Part shown: piece after piece, positions 2,963 through 11,507 of the stretch
Numbering within the stretch: position 1 is the first letter of the stretch
Layout: each line of letters begins with the position of its first letter
NCBI RefSeq assembly: GCF_900198835.1
Contig: NZ_LT900021.1
Location: forward strand, 124,001-188,000
Reading direction: 5' to 3'
DNA from: Thermococcus henrietii
GTDB taxonomy: Archaea; Methanobacteriota_B; Thermococci; Thermococcales; Thermococcaceae
Length of the DNA stretch: 64,000 nucleotides
Translations under genes and position numbers: made by a program
The notes under the pieces: generated by a model
Told to the model about the DNA's origin: nothing
The model's database searches: none
The model's input: the letters and a program-made list of their open reading frames with translations, nothing else

Positions 2963-4606
2963 ATGAACCCCGTGAAGGAAAAAGACGACCTCGAATCGGT
3001 TCTGAAGAACCTGAAGAAGCTTGAGGAGCTCAGCCCCTTCGAGTTCAAGGAGCTCCTGATAAGGCTCGCCAAGAGGAAATCCGAGAGAATGATGCTCAAC
3101 GCTGGCAGGGGGAACCCGAACTTCCTCGCCCTGGTTCCGCGCTACGCCTATTTACAGCTCGGAAAGTTCGCGCTGAGCGAGGCGGAAAGGCACTTCGGCT
3201 ACATGGGCGACCTGATAGGAGGCCACAGCGACAGGGAGGGAATCGAAGCGCGCTTTGAGATATTCGTCAGAAACCATTGGAACGAGAGGGGAACCGCCTT
3301 CCTGAACTCGGCCGTCAGCTACGTTAGGGATTATCTCGGCTTTTCCGCCGGGGACTTCCTGCACGAGATGGTCCAGGGCTACCTTGGCTGTGACTACCCA
3401 TCACCACCGAGGATGCTCCCGCTGGCGGAGAAGATAGTCGCGAGGTACCTCATGAAGGAGATGGGGGCAGGCTACGACCTCGGCTACTCCCTCGTTGACG
3501 AGACTCAACTTTTCGCGGTCGAGGGTGGAACCGGGGCGATGGCGTACCTCTTCGAGTCCCTCAAGGCCAACCACCTCCTCAACCCGGGCGACAAGATAGC
3601 GATAGCGGTTCCGATATTCAGCCCCTACCTCGAGATTCCGAAGCTCGACACCTACAGGCTGGAGATAATCGAGGTCAGGGCAAAGGAGGAGCTTGGCTAC
3701 CAGATACCGGACGAGGAGCTCGAGAAGCTCCGCGACCCGGAGATAAAGGCCTTCTTCCTCGTGAACCCCGGCAATCCAACCTCGGTGAAGCTCGAGGATG
3801 GGGTTCTCGAAAAGCTCAGGGAGATAGTTGAGGGGGACAGAAACGACCTCATAATCATCACAGACGACGTCTACGCGACCTTCGCGGACGACTTCAAATC
3901 TGTCTACACCGTTCTGCCCCACAACACGATACTCGTCTACTCGTTCTCCAAGTACTTCGGCGCGACCGGCTGGCGCCTCGGCGTCATAGCGCTCCACGAG
4001 GACAACGTCGTTGATAGGCTTATACGGGAACTGCCCGAGGAAATTCAGGAGGAGCTTGAGAGACGCTACGCCCCGATAACGCCGAACGCACGGGAGCTGA
4101 AGTTCATAGACAGGCTAGTTGCAGACAGCAGGAACGTCGCTTTAAGGCACACCGCTGGCCTTTCAACGCCCCAGCAGGTCCAGATGGTTCTATTCGCGCT
4201 TTACGCCCTCATGGACGAGCAGGAGAAGTATAAGAACGCGGTGAAGCACGTACTTAGAAGGCGCTACCGGGCGCTGTACAGGGGTCTCGGCCTCGAACCC
4301 GAGGAGAACCCGAACCTCACCTACTACTACACCCTCCTCGACACTGAGAAGCTCGCGGAGAGGCTCTACGGCAAAGAGTTCGCCGAGTGGTTCATCAAGG
4401 CCCTGCCGATAGAGGAGTTCATAGTTCGCCTCGCCCTCGATGCCGGCGTGGTTTTACTGCCGGGCAAGGGCTTCGAGGTGCTCCACCCGTCGGTGAGGGT
4501 CTCGCTGGCGAACCTCAGGGAGATAGACTACATCAAGATAGGCCAGACGATAAGAAGGCTAATAGACGAGTACTACAAGAAGTTCAAAGAATCGAAAGGG
4601 GAGTGA
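2963..4606 (+). CDS. Aspartate aminotransferase / aspartate 4-decarboxylase family PLP enzyme
   Basis: 547-aa fold-type I PLP enzyme of the bifunctional aspartate aminotransferase/aspartate 4-decarboxylase family (bacterial Asd members are ~530-545 aa, longer than ordinary ~400-aa aminotransferases). The PLP-lysine motif SFSKYFGATGWRLG lies near residue 330, and the substrate/PLP motif VNPGNPTSVKL near 270. The N-terminal extension (SPFEFKELLIRLAKRKSERMMLNAGRGNPNF) is typical of this subfamily. An upstream in-frame start exists at 2909, but ATG 2963 is preceded by GAGGTG at 2951-2956 and is preferred. Whether the archaeal enzyme decarboxylates aspartate to alanine or only transaminates cannot be told from sequence. 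Confidence 0.85.
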   Translation: MNPVKEKDDLESVLKNLKKLEELSPFEFKELLIRLAKRKSERMMLNAGRGNPNFLALVPRYAYLQLGKFALSEAERHFGYMGDLIGGHSDREGIEARFEIFVRNHWNERGTAFLNSAVSYVRDYLGFSAGDFLHEMVQGYLGCDYPSPPRMLPLAEKIVARYLMKEMGAGYDLGYSLVDETQLFAVEGGTGAMAYLFESLKANHLLNPGDKIAIAVPIFSPYLEIPKLDTYRLEIIEVRAKEELGYQIPDEELEKLRDPEIKAFFLVNPGNPTSVKLEDGVLEKLREIVEGDRNDLIIITDDVYATFADDFKSVYTVLPHNTILVYSFSKYFGATGWRLGVIALHEDNVVDRLIRELPEEIQEELERRYAPITPNARELKFIDRLVADSRNVALRHTAGLSTPQQVQMVLFALYALMDEQEKYKNAVKHVLRRRYRALYRGLGLEPEENPNLTYYYTLLDTEKLAERLYGKEFAEWFIKALPIEEFIVRLALDAGVVLLPGKGFEVLHPSVRVSLANLREIDYIKIGQTIRRLIDEYYKKFKESKGE

Positions 4607-8523: not shown

Positions 8524-9147
8524 TCAGAACCCCACACCAAACTCCTCCGCCAGCTCGTAGAACAACTCGTCCTCGCCAAGCTCCTCTCTGAGCTTCTCGA
8601 AGTTCTTCATCAGCCTCGGAAGCCTGCCCTTCGAGCGTCTCAACATCGAGTTGCCGATTTCGAGGGCGAAGCGCAGGTACTCGTCGCTGGCCATTATCTT
8701 CCCGTCCCTGCCAAGTGGAGCGGTCAGATACTCGGTGGCGTTTATCTCGACGAGGTAGCGGCTGGAGATTACCTTGAAGGTCGTGTACTTGAAACCACTG
8801 GCGAGGCCGAGCTCGTGGAGCCTCTTCGCTTTCTCAAGGTCCTCGGCTACGACGTGGAAAATCGGGGGCTGGCTTTTGAGGAATATCAATCCCTCCTTGG
8901 CCTTTTCAAGGGCCTTCTTTGCCTCGGGGAACGTCATCTCGCGGTGAACCTTAATCAGCCACCTGCTCAGGGGCTTGGCGCCCAAAGCTGGCTCCTCGAT
9001 GATTCCTATCCTGCCGGAGCAAGAGCTCGTCGTGTAGATTCCCTTGATGGAGTTGATGAGCAGGAGGAGGTCTATTATATCTTCGTCAACCTTACCCTCT
9101 CTCATCGCCGTGAAGAGGCTGACCAGCGCTTCCCTCTTCGCCTTCAT
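8524..9147 (-). CDS. taw3: tRNA(Phe) wyosine-derivative N4-methyltransferase Taw3
   Basis: 207-aa TYW3/Taw3 family protein, which methylates the N4 of 7-aminocarboxypropyl-demethylwyosine at position 37 of tRNA-Phe using SAM. The conserved YTTSSCSGRIGI motif lies at ~38-49 and ...VHREMTFPEA... follows, with the family motif EINATEYLTAPLGRDGKIMASDEYL near 145-165. Length is normal for the archaeal enzyme (~200 aa). The Shine-Dalgarno is weak (CCGGGGA just before ATG 9147). The flanking gene upstream is tRNA-His on the other strand, divergently transcribed. Confidence 0.92.
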   Translation of the reverse strand: MKAKREALVSLFTAMREGKVDEDIIDLLLLINSIKGIYTTSSCSGRIGIIEEPALGAKPLSRWLIKVHREMTFPEAKKALEKAKEGLIFLKSQPPIFHVVAEDLEKAKRLHELGLASGFKYTTFKVISSRYLVEINATEYLTAPLGRDGKIMASDEYLRFALEIGNSMLRRSKGRLPRLMKNFEKLREELGEDELFYELAEEFGVGF

Positions 9148-9288
9148 TCCCCGGCCCCCGGCGAGGTTTTCAATCGGCGTTAGACTGCACGCGCGCCTTA
9201 ATCTCGGGTGAAGGCGGGATTTGCCACCTCTGCTCCCGCCATCTGACGAAAACTTTATAAAGCTAACCCAAAAGCTTAAGCTGGACGT

Positions 9289-9366
9289 GGCCGGGGTGGT
9301 GTAGCCTGGTCAGCACAGGGGACTGTGGATCCCCTAGCCCGGGTTCAAATCCCGGCCCCGGCCCCA
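9289..9366 (+). tRNA. tRNA-His (anticodon GTG)
   Basis: Cloverleaf with the extra G-1 at 9289 pairing to discriminator C at 9363, acceptor GCCGGGG/CCCCGGC, anticodon loop ACTGTGGAT (GTG), T-arm CCGGG TTCAAAT CCCGG, and encoded CCA at 9364-9366. A TATA-like AACTTTATAAAG lies at 9251-9262, roughly 35 nt upstream. Confidence 0.97.
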
Positions 9367-9374
9367 TAACAGCC

Positions 9375-10232
9375 CTTGCTTTGCAAGCGCTGGCGGAGAA
9401 ACTTTTCTGGTGAAAAGTTTCATCAAAGTGAAGCATGCGTTTTAGAGGGTCCATTCTCGGAGGGTTTGCTCCTAAATTTGCTGTTCTCGAGCGTGTTTCC
9501 TTCATTAGCGCCCTTCGGGCGCGTTTCGAGTTTAAACACCTTCCCAAAAGCCCTTATTAAAGCAAACTCAAAAACCAACGGGTTACTTGGAGAGGCATGC
9601 ACTCTATCTTTACCCCCTGTGAGGGTTTGACCCTTTTGGTCAAGCTTTTCCCAAAAGCTTGCTTGGTGAGTGTTTCACTCCTCAAACGGCGTCCTTCGGA
9701 CGCCAAAACTAAGTTGAAACTAATACTCAAGGCATCTTTGAAGTTAAACTCGTTTTAAAACCGCGTCTTAATTAATGCACGACTGATTTTTTGCTCTTTG
9801 GGGAGAAGGGCATCCTTTTGGTCAAGCTTTGTTAAAGCTTGTTTGCCTGCGCGACGTCGAGCTCTGCTCGACGCAAGGGACGAGAGTCCCGCAGAGTTTG
9901 ACCAAGGTTCGTGATTGAAGCTTTTGGGAAAAGCTTCACCAAAAGTTAGTAGCTCCTCGTCAAAGGCCCAAAGGAAGAAGATTTTACTGAGAAAATCGAG
10001 CTTTACAAGAGAGAACTACCAAACAGCCCTCTCAAAGGGGTTTACTCTTCTCTGACGCCCTTCGGGCGTCGATTTTAACGTTAAACCCACAATGAAGGAG
10101 TAACTTGATAATGTTCTCCCACTCAAAACGGCCAACTGAAGAGAAAATCACCCGAAACTTAGCTTTTTAGAAGGAGCTACTAACTTTGATGAAACTTTGC
10201 GAAGGCAAAGTTTCCTTGGTGAAGCTTTTTCC
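9375..10232. repeat. Array of perfect short-loop hairpins in a gene-free block
   Basis: The ~950 bases between tRNA-His and the EamA gene hold no convincing gene. They contain at least twelve perfect inverted repeats with 3-6 nt loops: 9375-9387, 9398-9421, 9508-9522, 9641-9661, 9668-9680, 9688-9704, 9823-9841, 9855-9873, 9877-9890, 9917-9937, 10054-10070 and 10191-10214. They fall into recurring types: GAAACTTT stems, AAGCTTT stems, and GC stems with TTC loops (GCGCCC, GGCGTCC, GACGCCC). The direct repeat CTTTTGGTCAAGCTTT occurs at about 9632 and 9815. Segments near 9927-9957 recur inverted at 10172-10232. Reading frames through the block follow the palindromes and look non-coding. Confidence 0.75.
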
Positions 10233-10313
10233 AAAGGCCATTAAAAGCCTCAGACCGTTCTCACTCGTTCAAACGTCCCGACTGATAGCGAAAGATAAAG
10301 CCAGTTAAAGCGC

Positions 10314-11138
10314 CTACTCATCCCTTCCAAGGAGGATTCCCACCACTATCAAAATCAAGCCCAGAACGGTTGTCGGTTCTATCCTCTCACCAAGGATGAG
10401 GGAGATGAAGAGCAGACTAAGAAACGGCACTAAGTAAGCCAGGTTCGAGGCAAAGGCAACGTCGCTCTCAACCGCGCAGTACCAGAGGAGGTAAGTAACG
10501 CCCATCTCGAACAGGCCAACGTAAACCGCGCCGGCAATGCCCTTCAGGGGAGGGGGTGAAAAGCCCGCGAAGGGCATCAGCAGGGAGGCGTAGAAGAGGG
10601 CAAAGGCGAAGTTCCAGAACATCTTCTCCTCAAGCCTCCTGCCGTCCCGAACGTTCAGGAGCCAGTAGGCGGCCCAGATTAGGGCGCTTCCGAGACCGAG
10701 GGCATCCCCGATTGGATTCGAGAAGCCGAGGGATAGGACGTTGCCCCTGGTTGCAACAATGAGGGCACCGAGAAAGCCAAGAAAGAGGCCAAATAATGTC
10801 TTCAGGGCAAGTTTTCTCTTAAGCAGGGGGACGGAAAGCAGAACGAGCGCCAGGGGCCAAGTGTAGTTGAGCGCCTGCGCCTCCTGGGCGGGAAGAAGGT
10901 CATAGGCCGAGAAGAGGACGGTGTAGTAGAGGAGGAGTACGAGGCCAAGGTAAGCGGAGCGCAGGTTTTCTCTGGAGGGCCTGAAGCTCCGGAAGTAGAG
11001 GGCACCGTAGAGAACGAGCGACGTCAGAAAGGCCCAGAAGAGGAGCTGGAGAGGGCTCATGTAGCGGAGTGAGAGCTTGAAAGCACTTGCAACCGTTGAC
11101 CAGAGGAGAACGGCACCGACGGCGTGTTTTTTGGACAT
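10314..11138 (-). CDS. EamA/DMT-superfamily transporter
   Basis: 274-aa integral membrane protein with ten hydrophobic segments in two repeats of five (the EamA duplication), of the drug/metabolite transporter superfamily. Typical motifs are the first-helix WSTVASAFKLSL and the repeat signature NYTWPLALVLLSVPLLKRKL / ...LILGERIEPTTVLGLILIVVGILL. It probably exports a metabolite or amino acid; substrate unknown. Start ATG 11136-11138 follows the ATPase fragment by 30 nt on the same strand, with a TATA-like element between them. Confidence 0.85.
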   Translation of the reverse strand: MSKKHAVGAVLLWSTVASAFKLSLRYMSPLQLLFWAFLTSLVLYGALYFRSFRPSRENLRSAYLGLVLLLYYTVLFSAYDLLPAQEAQALNYTWPLALVLLSVPLLKRKLALKTLFGLFLGFLGALIVATRGNVLSLGFSNPIGDALGLGSALIWAAYWLLNVRDGRRLEEKMFWNFAFALFYASLLMPFAGFSPPPLKGIAGAVYVGLFEMGVTYLLWYCAVESDVAFASNLAYLVPFLSLLFISLILGERIEPTTVLGLILIVVGILLGRDE

Positions 11139-11168: not shown

Positions 11169-11507
11169 TTATCGCTCAGCTAAAACGCGCTCGATTACCG
11201 GGTCGATTAGCCTGTACCTTTTCCTGCCGGAGCTGAAGTCCGCCTCAATCCAGCTCATCTTTTCGAGATTCCTGATGAGTTCGGCCAAGCGGGACTTCGG
11301 GACGTTGTGACCCCTAAAGGCGAGGTAGTCCCGGATTAGCTCCCATCTGTTCTGTCCCCTGGCTATGGCTTCAAGAATCAAAACGTAGCGGGGACTCCTC
11401 CGCTCAAGCTCCCTGAGCTCTCCTTTAAGGAACCCTCTCGCCTGGCGGAACACGTACTCCAGCGAGCCCTCATAGGTAATGCCCCCAGGACCAGGTAACG
11501 GTACCAT
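11169..11507 (-). pseudogene. C-terminal fragment of an archaeal AAA (DEXX-box/DUF234-type) ATPase
   Basis: 112 aa matching only the C-terminal winged-helix part of archaeal STAND-like ATPases: SLEYVFRQARGFLKGELRELERRSPRYVLILEAIARG, then KSRLAELIRNLEKMSWIEAD...KRYRLIDPVIERVL. Full-length members are ~350-450 aa with a P-loop at the N-terminus; no Walker A or B is present here. Immediately upstream there is only 33 nt before GcvT. It is either a 5'-deleted gene or a small stand-alone HTH protein that kept the ATG 11505-11507, which lies inside a 20-nt palindrome. I favour a deletion product that may still be expressed. Confidence 0.6.

Follow-up and report, generated by a model that had tools for sequence, protein, structure and literature searches.

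The hairpin-rich stretch that follows the tRNA-His gene of Thermococcus henrietii is an array belonging to a family of structured, non-coding repeats, which are found at the 3′ ends of stable-RNA genes, mostly those of tRNAs, and probably serve there as portals for recombination. In the window, i.e., the whole stretch of 64,000 nucleotides that was analysed, this array starts directly 3′ of the CCA of tRNA-His, at 9367, and extends to about 10239; its ~870 non-coding bases include the modules A, B, and C (Table 1).

The Array Downstream of tRNA-His

A preliminary description had noticed a dense cluster of perfect hairpins at 9375–10232, a segment that the array slightly exceeds at both ends. 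There are 15 hairpins with a stem of at least 5 and a loop of 3–6 nt in this segment, against a mean of 4.3 (maximum 10) in 100 dinucleotide shuffles. With stems of at least 6, 10 are found (shuffles: mean 1.3, maximum 5), and with stems of at least 7, 8 (mean 0.4, maximum 2), while 9367–10290 bears four hairpins with stems of at least 9, the mean over 200 shuffles being 0.035. Thus, the density is indeed far above chance, the count of at least twelve is correct with a stem cut-off of 5, and the three stem families named are real, with further families existing besides them. The stretch was rightly regarded as unlike coding DNA: 9367–10239 holds only short overlapping reading frames of up to 94 aa and no gene. 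Nor are the hairpins conserved parts of an mRNA or an assembly artefact, the two explanations considered fatal at the time, since no gene lies there and the family occurs in independent genomes. An Rfam search of 9200–10400 with E values up to 1 recovered nothing but the tRNA and a single sub-threshold match that overlaps this gene, which speaks against a known RNA family.

Unit C of the array carries inverted repeats, ACCAAAAGTTAGTAGCTCC and GGAGCTACTAACTTTGAT, and folds far better than its shuffled versions (z −8.4). The window also encodes, on the minus strand at 11169–11507, a protein of 112 aa that stands alone and resembles the winged-helix domain at the C-terminus of MCM (Pfam PF21100, E 4e-12).

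Table 1. Features of the tRNA-His array and its neighbours in the window, and two H/ACA RNA loci with an array (coordinates of the respective locus)
Feature	Position	Strand	Remarks
TYW3 gene, upstream of tRNA-His	8524–9147	−	adjoins tRNA-His in 30/30 orthologous loci
tRNA-His(gtg), array attached to its 3′ end	9290–9366	+	ARAGORN, Rfam; CCA encoded at 9364–9366
Array head of type T1 (ACAGCCCTTGC..GCAAGCGCTGGCGGA), including hairpin 9375–9387	9367–9397	+	like heads after many other tRNAs
Unit A	9398–9661	+	left hairpin 9398–9421, GC-rich central hairpin 9508–9522, right hairpin 9641–9661
Unit B (T1 unit without head)	9662–9841	+	central hairpin 9688–9704, right hairpin 9823–9841
Joint segment with hairpins 9855–9873 and 9877–9890, followed by the beginning of another unit (GAGTTTGACCAAGGTTCGTGAT)	9842–9915	+	joint recurs in other arrays
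Unit C	9916–10214	+	left hairpin 9916–9938, central hairpin 10054–10070, right hairpin 10191–10214
Distal end of the array (CTTGGTGAAGCTTTTTCCAAAGGCC)	10215–10239	+	motif also 3′ of tRNA-Trp in the same genome
EamA transporter gene, adjoins the array	10314–11138	−	block 3′ of the tRNA-Trp array in T. nautili and of the tRNA-Gly(ccc) array in G020
Pab160 with array	L012 2568–3152; L123 2974–3900		L012, own genome; L123, T. nautili

Distribution of the Family and Its Placement at RNA 3′ Ends

A search of genomes, which the preliminary description had recommended for the stem families, gave 84 matches of the array in its own 2.16-Mb genome, some of which fall on other tRNA genes. Of the 61 genomes searched in the genus, the own one included, 59 have matches. 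Genome G022 gave no match and G060 a single weak one (E 8e-4); both are rated 99% complete and represent natural controls for genome stability. In a sample of 81 genomes of the taxonomic family, matches were obtained in 47 of 48 genomes of the genus Thermococcus, in 3/3, 6/7, and 6/13 genomes of the genera g4, g5, and g6, and in none of those of g2 (0/9) and g3 (0/1). The genus g2 is presumably Pyrococcus; 33 tRNA flanks of one of its genomes bear no array. Plasmid and phage collections searched with the array DNA yielded no match, and a plasmid or phage origin was therefore discarded.

The heads of the arrays start 0–4 nt 3′ of the encoded CCA at 21 of the 46 tRNAs of the T. henrietii genome, at 20 of the 40 fetched from T. 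nautili, and at 9 of 36 in G020; one of 47 ARAGORN calls in the own genome (with a 1196-nt intron) and one of 100 in the others (713-nt intron) had been dropped as spurious. Five further tRNAs of the own genome lie just upstream of an array-bearing tRNA in a tandem pair. The array side is the 3′ side of the tRNA, upstream coverage being found mainly where the array of a neighbouring tRNA extends. One and the same tRNA may carry different heads in different species, orthologous tRNAs of near relatives may be devoid of an array, and the heads of Leu(gag) and Leu(caa) within one genome are identical over 150/150 nt. An additional repeated module that begins with (CAA)CGAAAGACAAGGGGG(G)CTCCGCCCCC and was not counted as a head occurs 3′ of the CCA of tRNA-Gln(ttg) in T. 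nautili and G020, of tRNA-Lys(ttt) in G020, and of tRNA-Thr(ggt) in G021.

When arrays are read side by side, the family appears as dispersed non-coding units of ~250–300 nt each, joined into arrays on a common plan. Each unit opens with an end hairpin, which ~117 nt separate from a GC-rich central hairpin whose loop has 3 nt; after another ~117 nt comes the hairpin that forms the joint to the following unit. The hairpins of the tRNA-His array are such joints and centres, and the order and orientation of the modules A, B, and C vary among the matches. A hairpin of the sought form was found in 43 of the 65 arrays examined, with the first central hairpin starting 110–121 nt after the CCA in 18 of them and 142–163 nt after it in 13, while the distance is larger in the other 12.

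Exchange of the DNA beyond the Arrays

Judging from gene order, arrays are breakpoints of synteny. The proposed comparison of the tRNA-His flank between genomes revealed a constant upstream side, with TYW3 at all 30 loci, and a downstream side that varies from genome to genome. The same holds more widely when the 21 array-bearing tRNAs are compared with T. nautili, tandem tRNAs being handled as units: the downstream DNA lies beside a different tRNA in 13 cases and beside the same one in 3, was not found in 3, and had no fetched orthologue in 2. All 13 lists of partners of the swapped flanks include an array-bearing tRNA. As for the 20 units lacking an array, none has its downstream DNA elsewhere (9 same, 8 not found, 3 without orthologue), so that the two classes differ with a Fisher p of 1e-4 for the found cases. 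The head pattern misses some types, such as CAACGAAAGACAAGGGGG after Gln(ttg), so the class without array holds some carriers. The upstream sides of array tRNAs served as a control and gave 12 same and 0 elsewhere. Counting against the arrays as the cause are the three array tRNAs with unchanged downstream DNA in the own genome and T. nautili, namely Ile, Val(tac), and Val(gac), as well as the loss of synteny at numerous tRNAs without an array (the 8 of 20 not found).

Pairwise synteny, with loci too short for the test marked as such, gives a similar picture: where at least one of the genomes compared has an array, synteny is kept downstream at 3 of 18 tRNAs and upstream at 16 of 18, and where none has one, at 10 of 12 on either side, the class without array in the comparison of the own genome with T. 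nautili including two tandem upstream tRNAs (Asn and Glu). The two classes differ less markedly when the comparison is made with G020, which is more distant from the own genome than T. nautili (p = 0.02 and 0.036), and 12 of 21 downstream flanks were not found; here, array-bearing partners are present in 4 of 7 lists for the own genome and in 7 of 9 for T. nautili. Flanks are thus swapped only where the element is present, as would be required of a recombination portal, though less clearly so against G020.

A Mosaic Array and a Proposed Mechanism

The array of the window is itself a mosaic. From the CCA to 9677, it matches the flank of tRNA-His in G050 (83%), while from 9647 on, across unit B and all further parts of the array as far as the EamA gene, which is included, it matches the flank of tRNA-Trp in T. 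nautili (87%), and the junction of the two parts falls at the hairpin 9641–9661. Over its whole length, the flank also matches that of tRNA-Gly(ccc) in G020 (83%). A comparison of 65 arrays gave 317 internal positions at which high identity ends. A hairpin is no more than 15 nt away from 138 of them, whereas 62.6 ± 7.2 would be expected of random positions, although these ends are not mutually independent.

The arrays may thus represent both dispersed homology and crossover sites that supply distant RNA genes with matching DNA. If the arrays of two RNA genes recombined, in many cases at a hairpin joint, each RNA gene would retain its own promoter side, and everything beyond the array would be swapped; for RNA genes facing opposite ways, the outcome would be an inversion. 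Homologous recombination and/or integrases of the pTN3 type are the candidate agents, and the crossovers probably fell inside the arrays in most cases. That they occurred there and not in the 3′ halves of the tRNAs is indicated by the window junction (9641–9677) and by the RNA Pab160 (see below), and we infer the same for the other loci; several swaps could nevertheless have crossed over in the tRNA 3′ half, and arrays could also be passengers of the breakpoints. Repeated exchange would explain why one tRNA carries different heads across species while heads within one genome may be identical. Taken together, flank swapping, the mosaic junction at a hairpin, and the overlap with the published inversion segments speak for the recombination site that was among the first guesses about this stretch.

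Relation to Published Inversions

An inversion between two tRNA-Gly genes that arose in T. nautili in the laboratory has been described to proceed via an identical segment of 176 bp (Cossu et al. 2017, PMC5495485). The portion of that work available to us also reports inversion ends at tRNA genes in Thermococcus and inversions promoted by IntpTN3, takes the tRNA genes as the homologous partners, and, of the adjoining DNA, mentions only “strictly conserved sequences immediately following” (PMC5495485). In the T. nautili genome (G012), the loci of tRNA-Gly(ccc) and tRNA-Gly(tcc) share 41 + 135 = 176 bp, starting at tRNA nt 37 (with the first nt as 0) and running up to flank nt 135, with one mismatch, which is taken to be the sequencing error mentioned by the authors in the accessible text (PMC5495485). 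Since 135 of the 176 bp lie in the flank, most of the published inversion segment is array element. It has been shown by others that pTN3-type integrases recombine any identical pair of ~100 bp.

The downstream flanks of Leu(caa) and Thr(ggt) are reciprocally swapped between genomes G013 and G021, the upstream sides being kept. We take these genomes to be the T. onnurineus and T. sp. 4557 pair of the published Leu/Thr inversion. Array DNA or heads are present at 4/4 ends, although the heads at two of them, identified by eye, are short or decayed; tRNA-Thr of T. onnurineus is followed by a second tRNA, and the head comes after the latter. According to the part of the paper at hand, this inversion was not reproduced in vitro by the two tRNA genes and was left unexplained (PMC5495485). 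The arrays would account for what the tRNA genes alone could not reproduce.

Arrays Away from tRNA Genes

Three arrays have no tRNA in ARAGORN (L012, L013, and L026), whereas in other such cases a tRNA with an intron was later recognised upstream. The array of L012 is located 3′ of the H/ACA guide RNA Pab160, and T. nautili shows the same arrangement. An array lies 3′ of Pab160 at 3 of 30 loci (own genome, T. nautili, and G050), the other 27 being without, and the gene 3′ of the Pab160 array in T. nautili is the one found 3′ of the tRNA-Gly(ccc) array in the own genome. Homology of tRNAs is therefore not needed, because Pab160 is no relative of tRNA and yet carries an array and shares its downstream gene with tRNA-Gly(ccc); tRNA genes alone are insufficient as recombination partners. 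No tRNA piece beyond short words was seen in the arrays of L012, L013, and L026, nor does the distal end of the tRNA-His array show a fragment of a tRNA 3′ part. The G050 array downstream of Pab160 (L291) resembles a contracted version of the T. nautili array (L123) joined at a repeated hairpin, which suggests that arrays shrink by recombination between joints. In L013 (~4122–4230, minus strand), the array is immediately preceded by a stretch that is rich in GC and in hairpins and has a TATA-like box on its upstream side; this flank gave no Rfam match and is perhaps an undescribed stable RNA.

Pab160 is the only locus read with both flanks kept, and it bears on the possibility that the arrays are MITE-like non-autonomous elements, moved in trans by some transposase or integrase, that insert at the 3′ ends of stable RNAs, the rearrangements being a by-product of their copies. 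This reading is a serious one, if on balance not the expected one. Inverted repeats at the unit ends (present in unit C and in the T2 unit described below), units in both orientations and many orders, near-identical dispersed copies, and the placement 3′ of an unrelated RNA gene in only 3 of 30 genomes all agree with it. A clean insertion was not obtained at Pab160, however, as the empty locus has other sequence in place of the array, with no visible target duplication, and none was noticed in general. The units are also without a coding gene or a match in the plasmid and phage collections, and the downstream flank is kept in only 1 of 21 pairwise comparisons with an array in just one genome. 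For T. gammatolerans, the authors of the genome paper report no transposase genes in the available text. Of the earlier suggestion of small mobile palindromes, the dispersed modular family of near-palindromic units has been confirmed, whereas no enzyme encoded in the units, no target duplication, and no clean insertion was found. Perfectly paired conserved central hairpins are not known as a hallmark of MITEs, which also counts against this reading.

Conserved Folds

Units of both types retain their folds by compensatory changes. In the T1 alignment (18 sequences; 2 of the 20 T1 heads, the truncated Cys and Pro of the own genome, and nine heads running into unit A were omitted), 94.7% of the helix cells are paired, and both sides are changed in 31 cells against 13.3 in shuffles. 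In the T2 alignment (17 of 35 T2 flanks, picked among those with a recognised end hairpin), the values are 97.3% and 44 against 16.8. Sliding the helix partners abolishes the compensation signal in both. The long inverted repeat of T2 exists in two versions with three adjacent pairs fully compensated, and its helix, formed by 29–46 with 286–304, is paired in 98% of the cells. The fold therefore matters, be it as RNA or as DNA, and a decayed insertion, also proposed initially, fails as a general account, although some tRNAs do carry decayed copies. Compensatory changes would be equally expected of RNA and of DNA in single-stranded or cruciform form. Nor is the matter settled by the wobble counts: there are 8 G-U versus 4 A-C in central hairpins (p = 0.39), and the long T2 helix is richer in G-U.

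These data invite the view that the units are functional RNAs, co-transcribed from the tRNA, whose folds act in 3′ processing, in termination, or as independent RNAs, with recombination as a side effect. The position of the heads directly after the CCA on the 3′ side, the compensated pairs of both unit types, and the more frequent TTTTT within 100 nt (33 of 65 array flanks versus 13 of 80 others) fit such a role. It is nevertheless unlikely, given that orthologous tRNAs of near relatives lack an array, that an array may hold several units and either strand may carry them, that the wobble bias of the central hairpins is not in its favour, and that there is no Rfam family; such an RNA is not mentioned in the accessible part of the T. 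kodakarensis transcriptome paper either. RNA function and MITE-like insertion are live rivals of the recombination portals and are not mutually exclusive.

The arrays might also be thought of as sites of chromosome architecture, where AT-rich, hairpin-prone DNA after highly transcribed genes would stall SMC or bind a nucleoid protein, and T. kodakarensis does have SMC-dependent domains, the arrays have a G+C of 45% against 54% upstream, and the central hairpins are regularly spaced from the CCA (110–121 or 142–163 nt in 31 of 43 arrays), but this is very improbable, as the arrays are absent from the genus inferred to be Pyrococcus (0/9), which carries the same chromatin proteins.

Significance and Comparison with Known Systems

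Rearrangement of Thermococcus chromosomes is so rapid that even those of close relatives are difficult to align, which has been called paradoxical in the literature as far as it was available, insertion sequences and repeats being scarce; the accessible text of the T. gammatolerans genome paper likewise stresses the scarcity of repeats and plasticity not due to mobile elements. A repeat family that 47 of 48 Thermococcus genomes carry, that all 9 genomes of the presumed Pyrococcus lack, and that is located at the breakpoints offers a direct and testable cause, and the arrays may explain this fast rearrangement.

The places concerned are those of Cossu et al. 2017, whose inversion ends at tRNA genes coincide with the arrays and whose Leu/Thr inversion is recovered here, while the repeat family is not described in the part of that paper available, where the tRNA genes themselves are the partners (PMC5495485). 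Tracts of full-text literature, judged mostly by title and the start of the abstract and with subscription journals largely outside the scope, contained no description recognised as the array family. Thus, tRNA genes were already known as breakpoints, and the arrays as the substrate appear to be new.

REP/BIME palindromic repeats and MITEs are short, non-coding, palindromic, dispersed, and modular and occur in both orientations. The arrays share these features with them but differ in their units of ~250–300 nt, the conserved central hairpin, the strict anchoring at RNA 3′ ends, and the lack of a known mobilising enzyme. With integrative elements targeting tRNAs (SSV type, TKV, and pTN3), they have in common the chromosomal site, i.e., the tRNA 3′ region. 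In those elements, the integrase gene is split by the att sites and a copy of the tRNA 3′ part stands at the far end, whereas the arrays are without a gene: no integrase gene was found among the frames of the window array (up to 94 aa in 9367–10239), and related arrays were varied, with no shared gene.

In the attC arrays of integrons, units follow one another in series, with hairpins as the joints between them and frequent exchange at these joints, and the arrays described here are built alike, although they have neither an integrase nor cassette genes and their units are themselves palindromic. A bolder version of the portal reading, which we consider rather improbable, would see in them a genus-wide system of chromosome shuffling, where a recombinase guided by structure, or else an integrase of the pTN3 type, would exchange hairpin-bounded, protein-free DNA cassettes 3′ of stable-RNA genes at their hairpin joints, and RNA genes would be the docking points for traded blocks of the chromosome, much as integrons trade cassettes.
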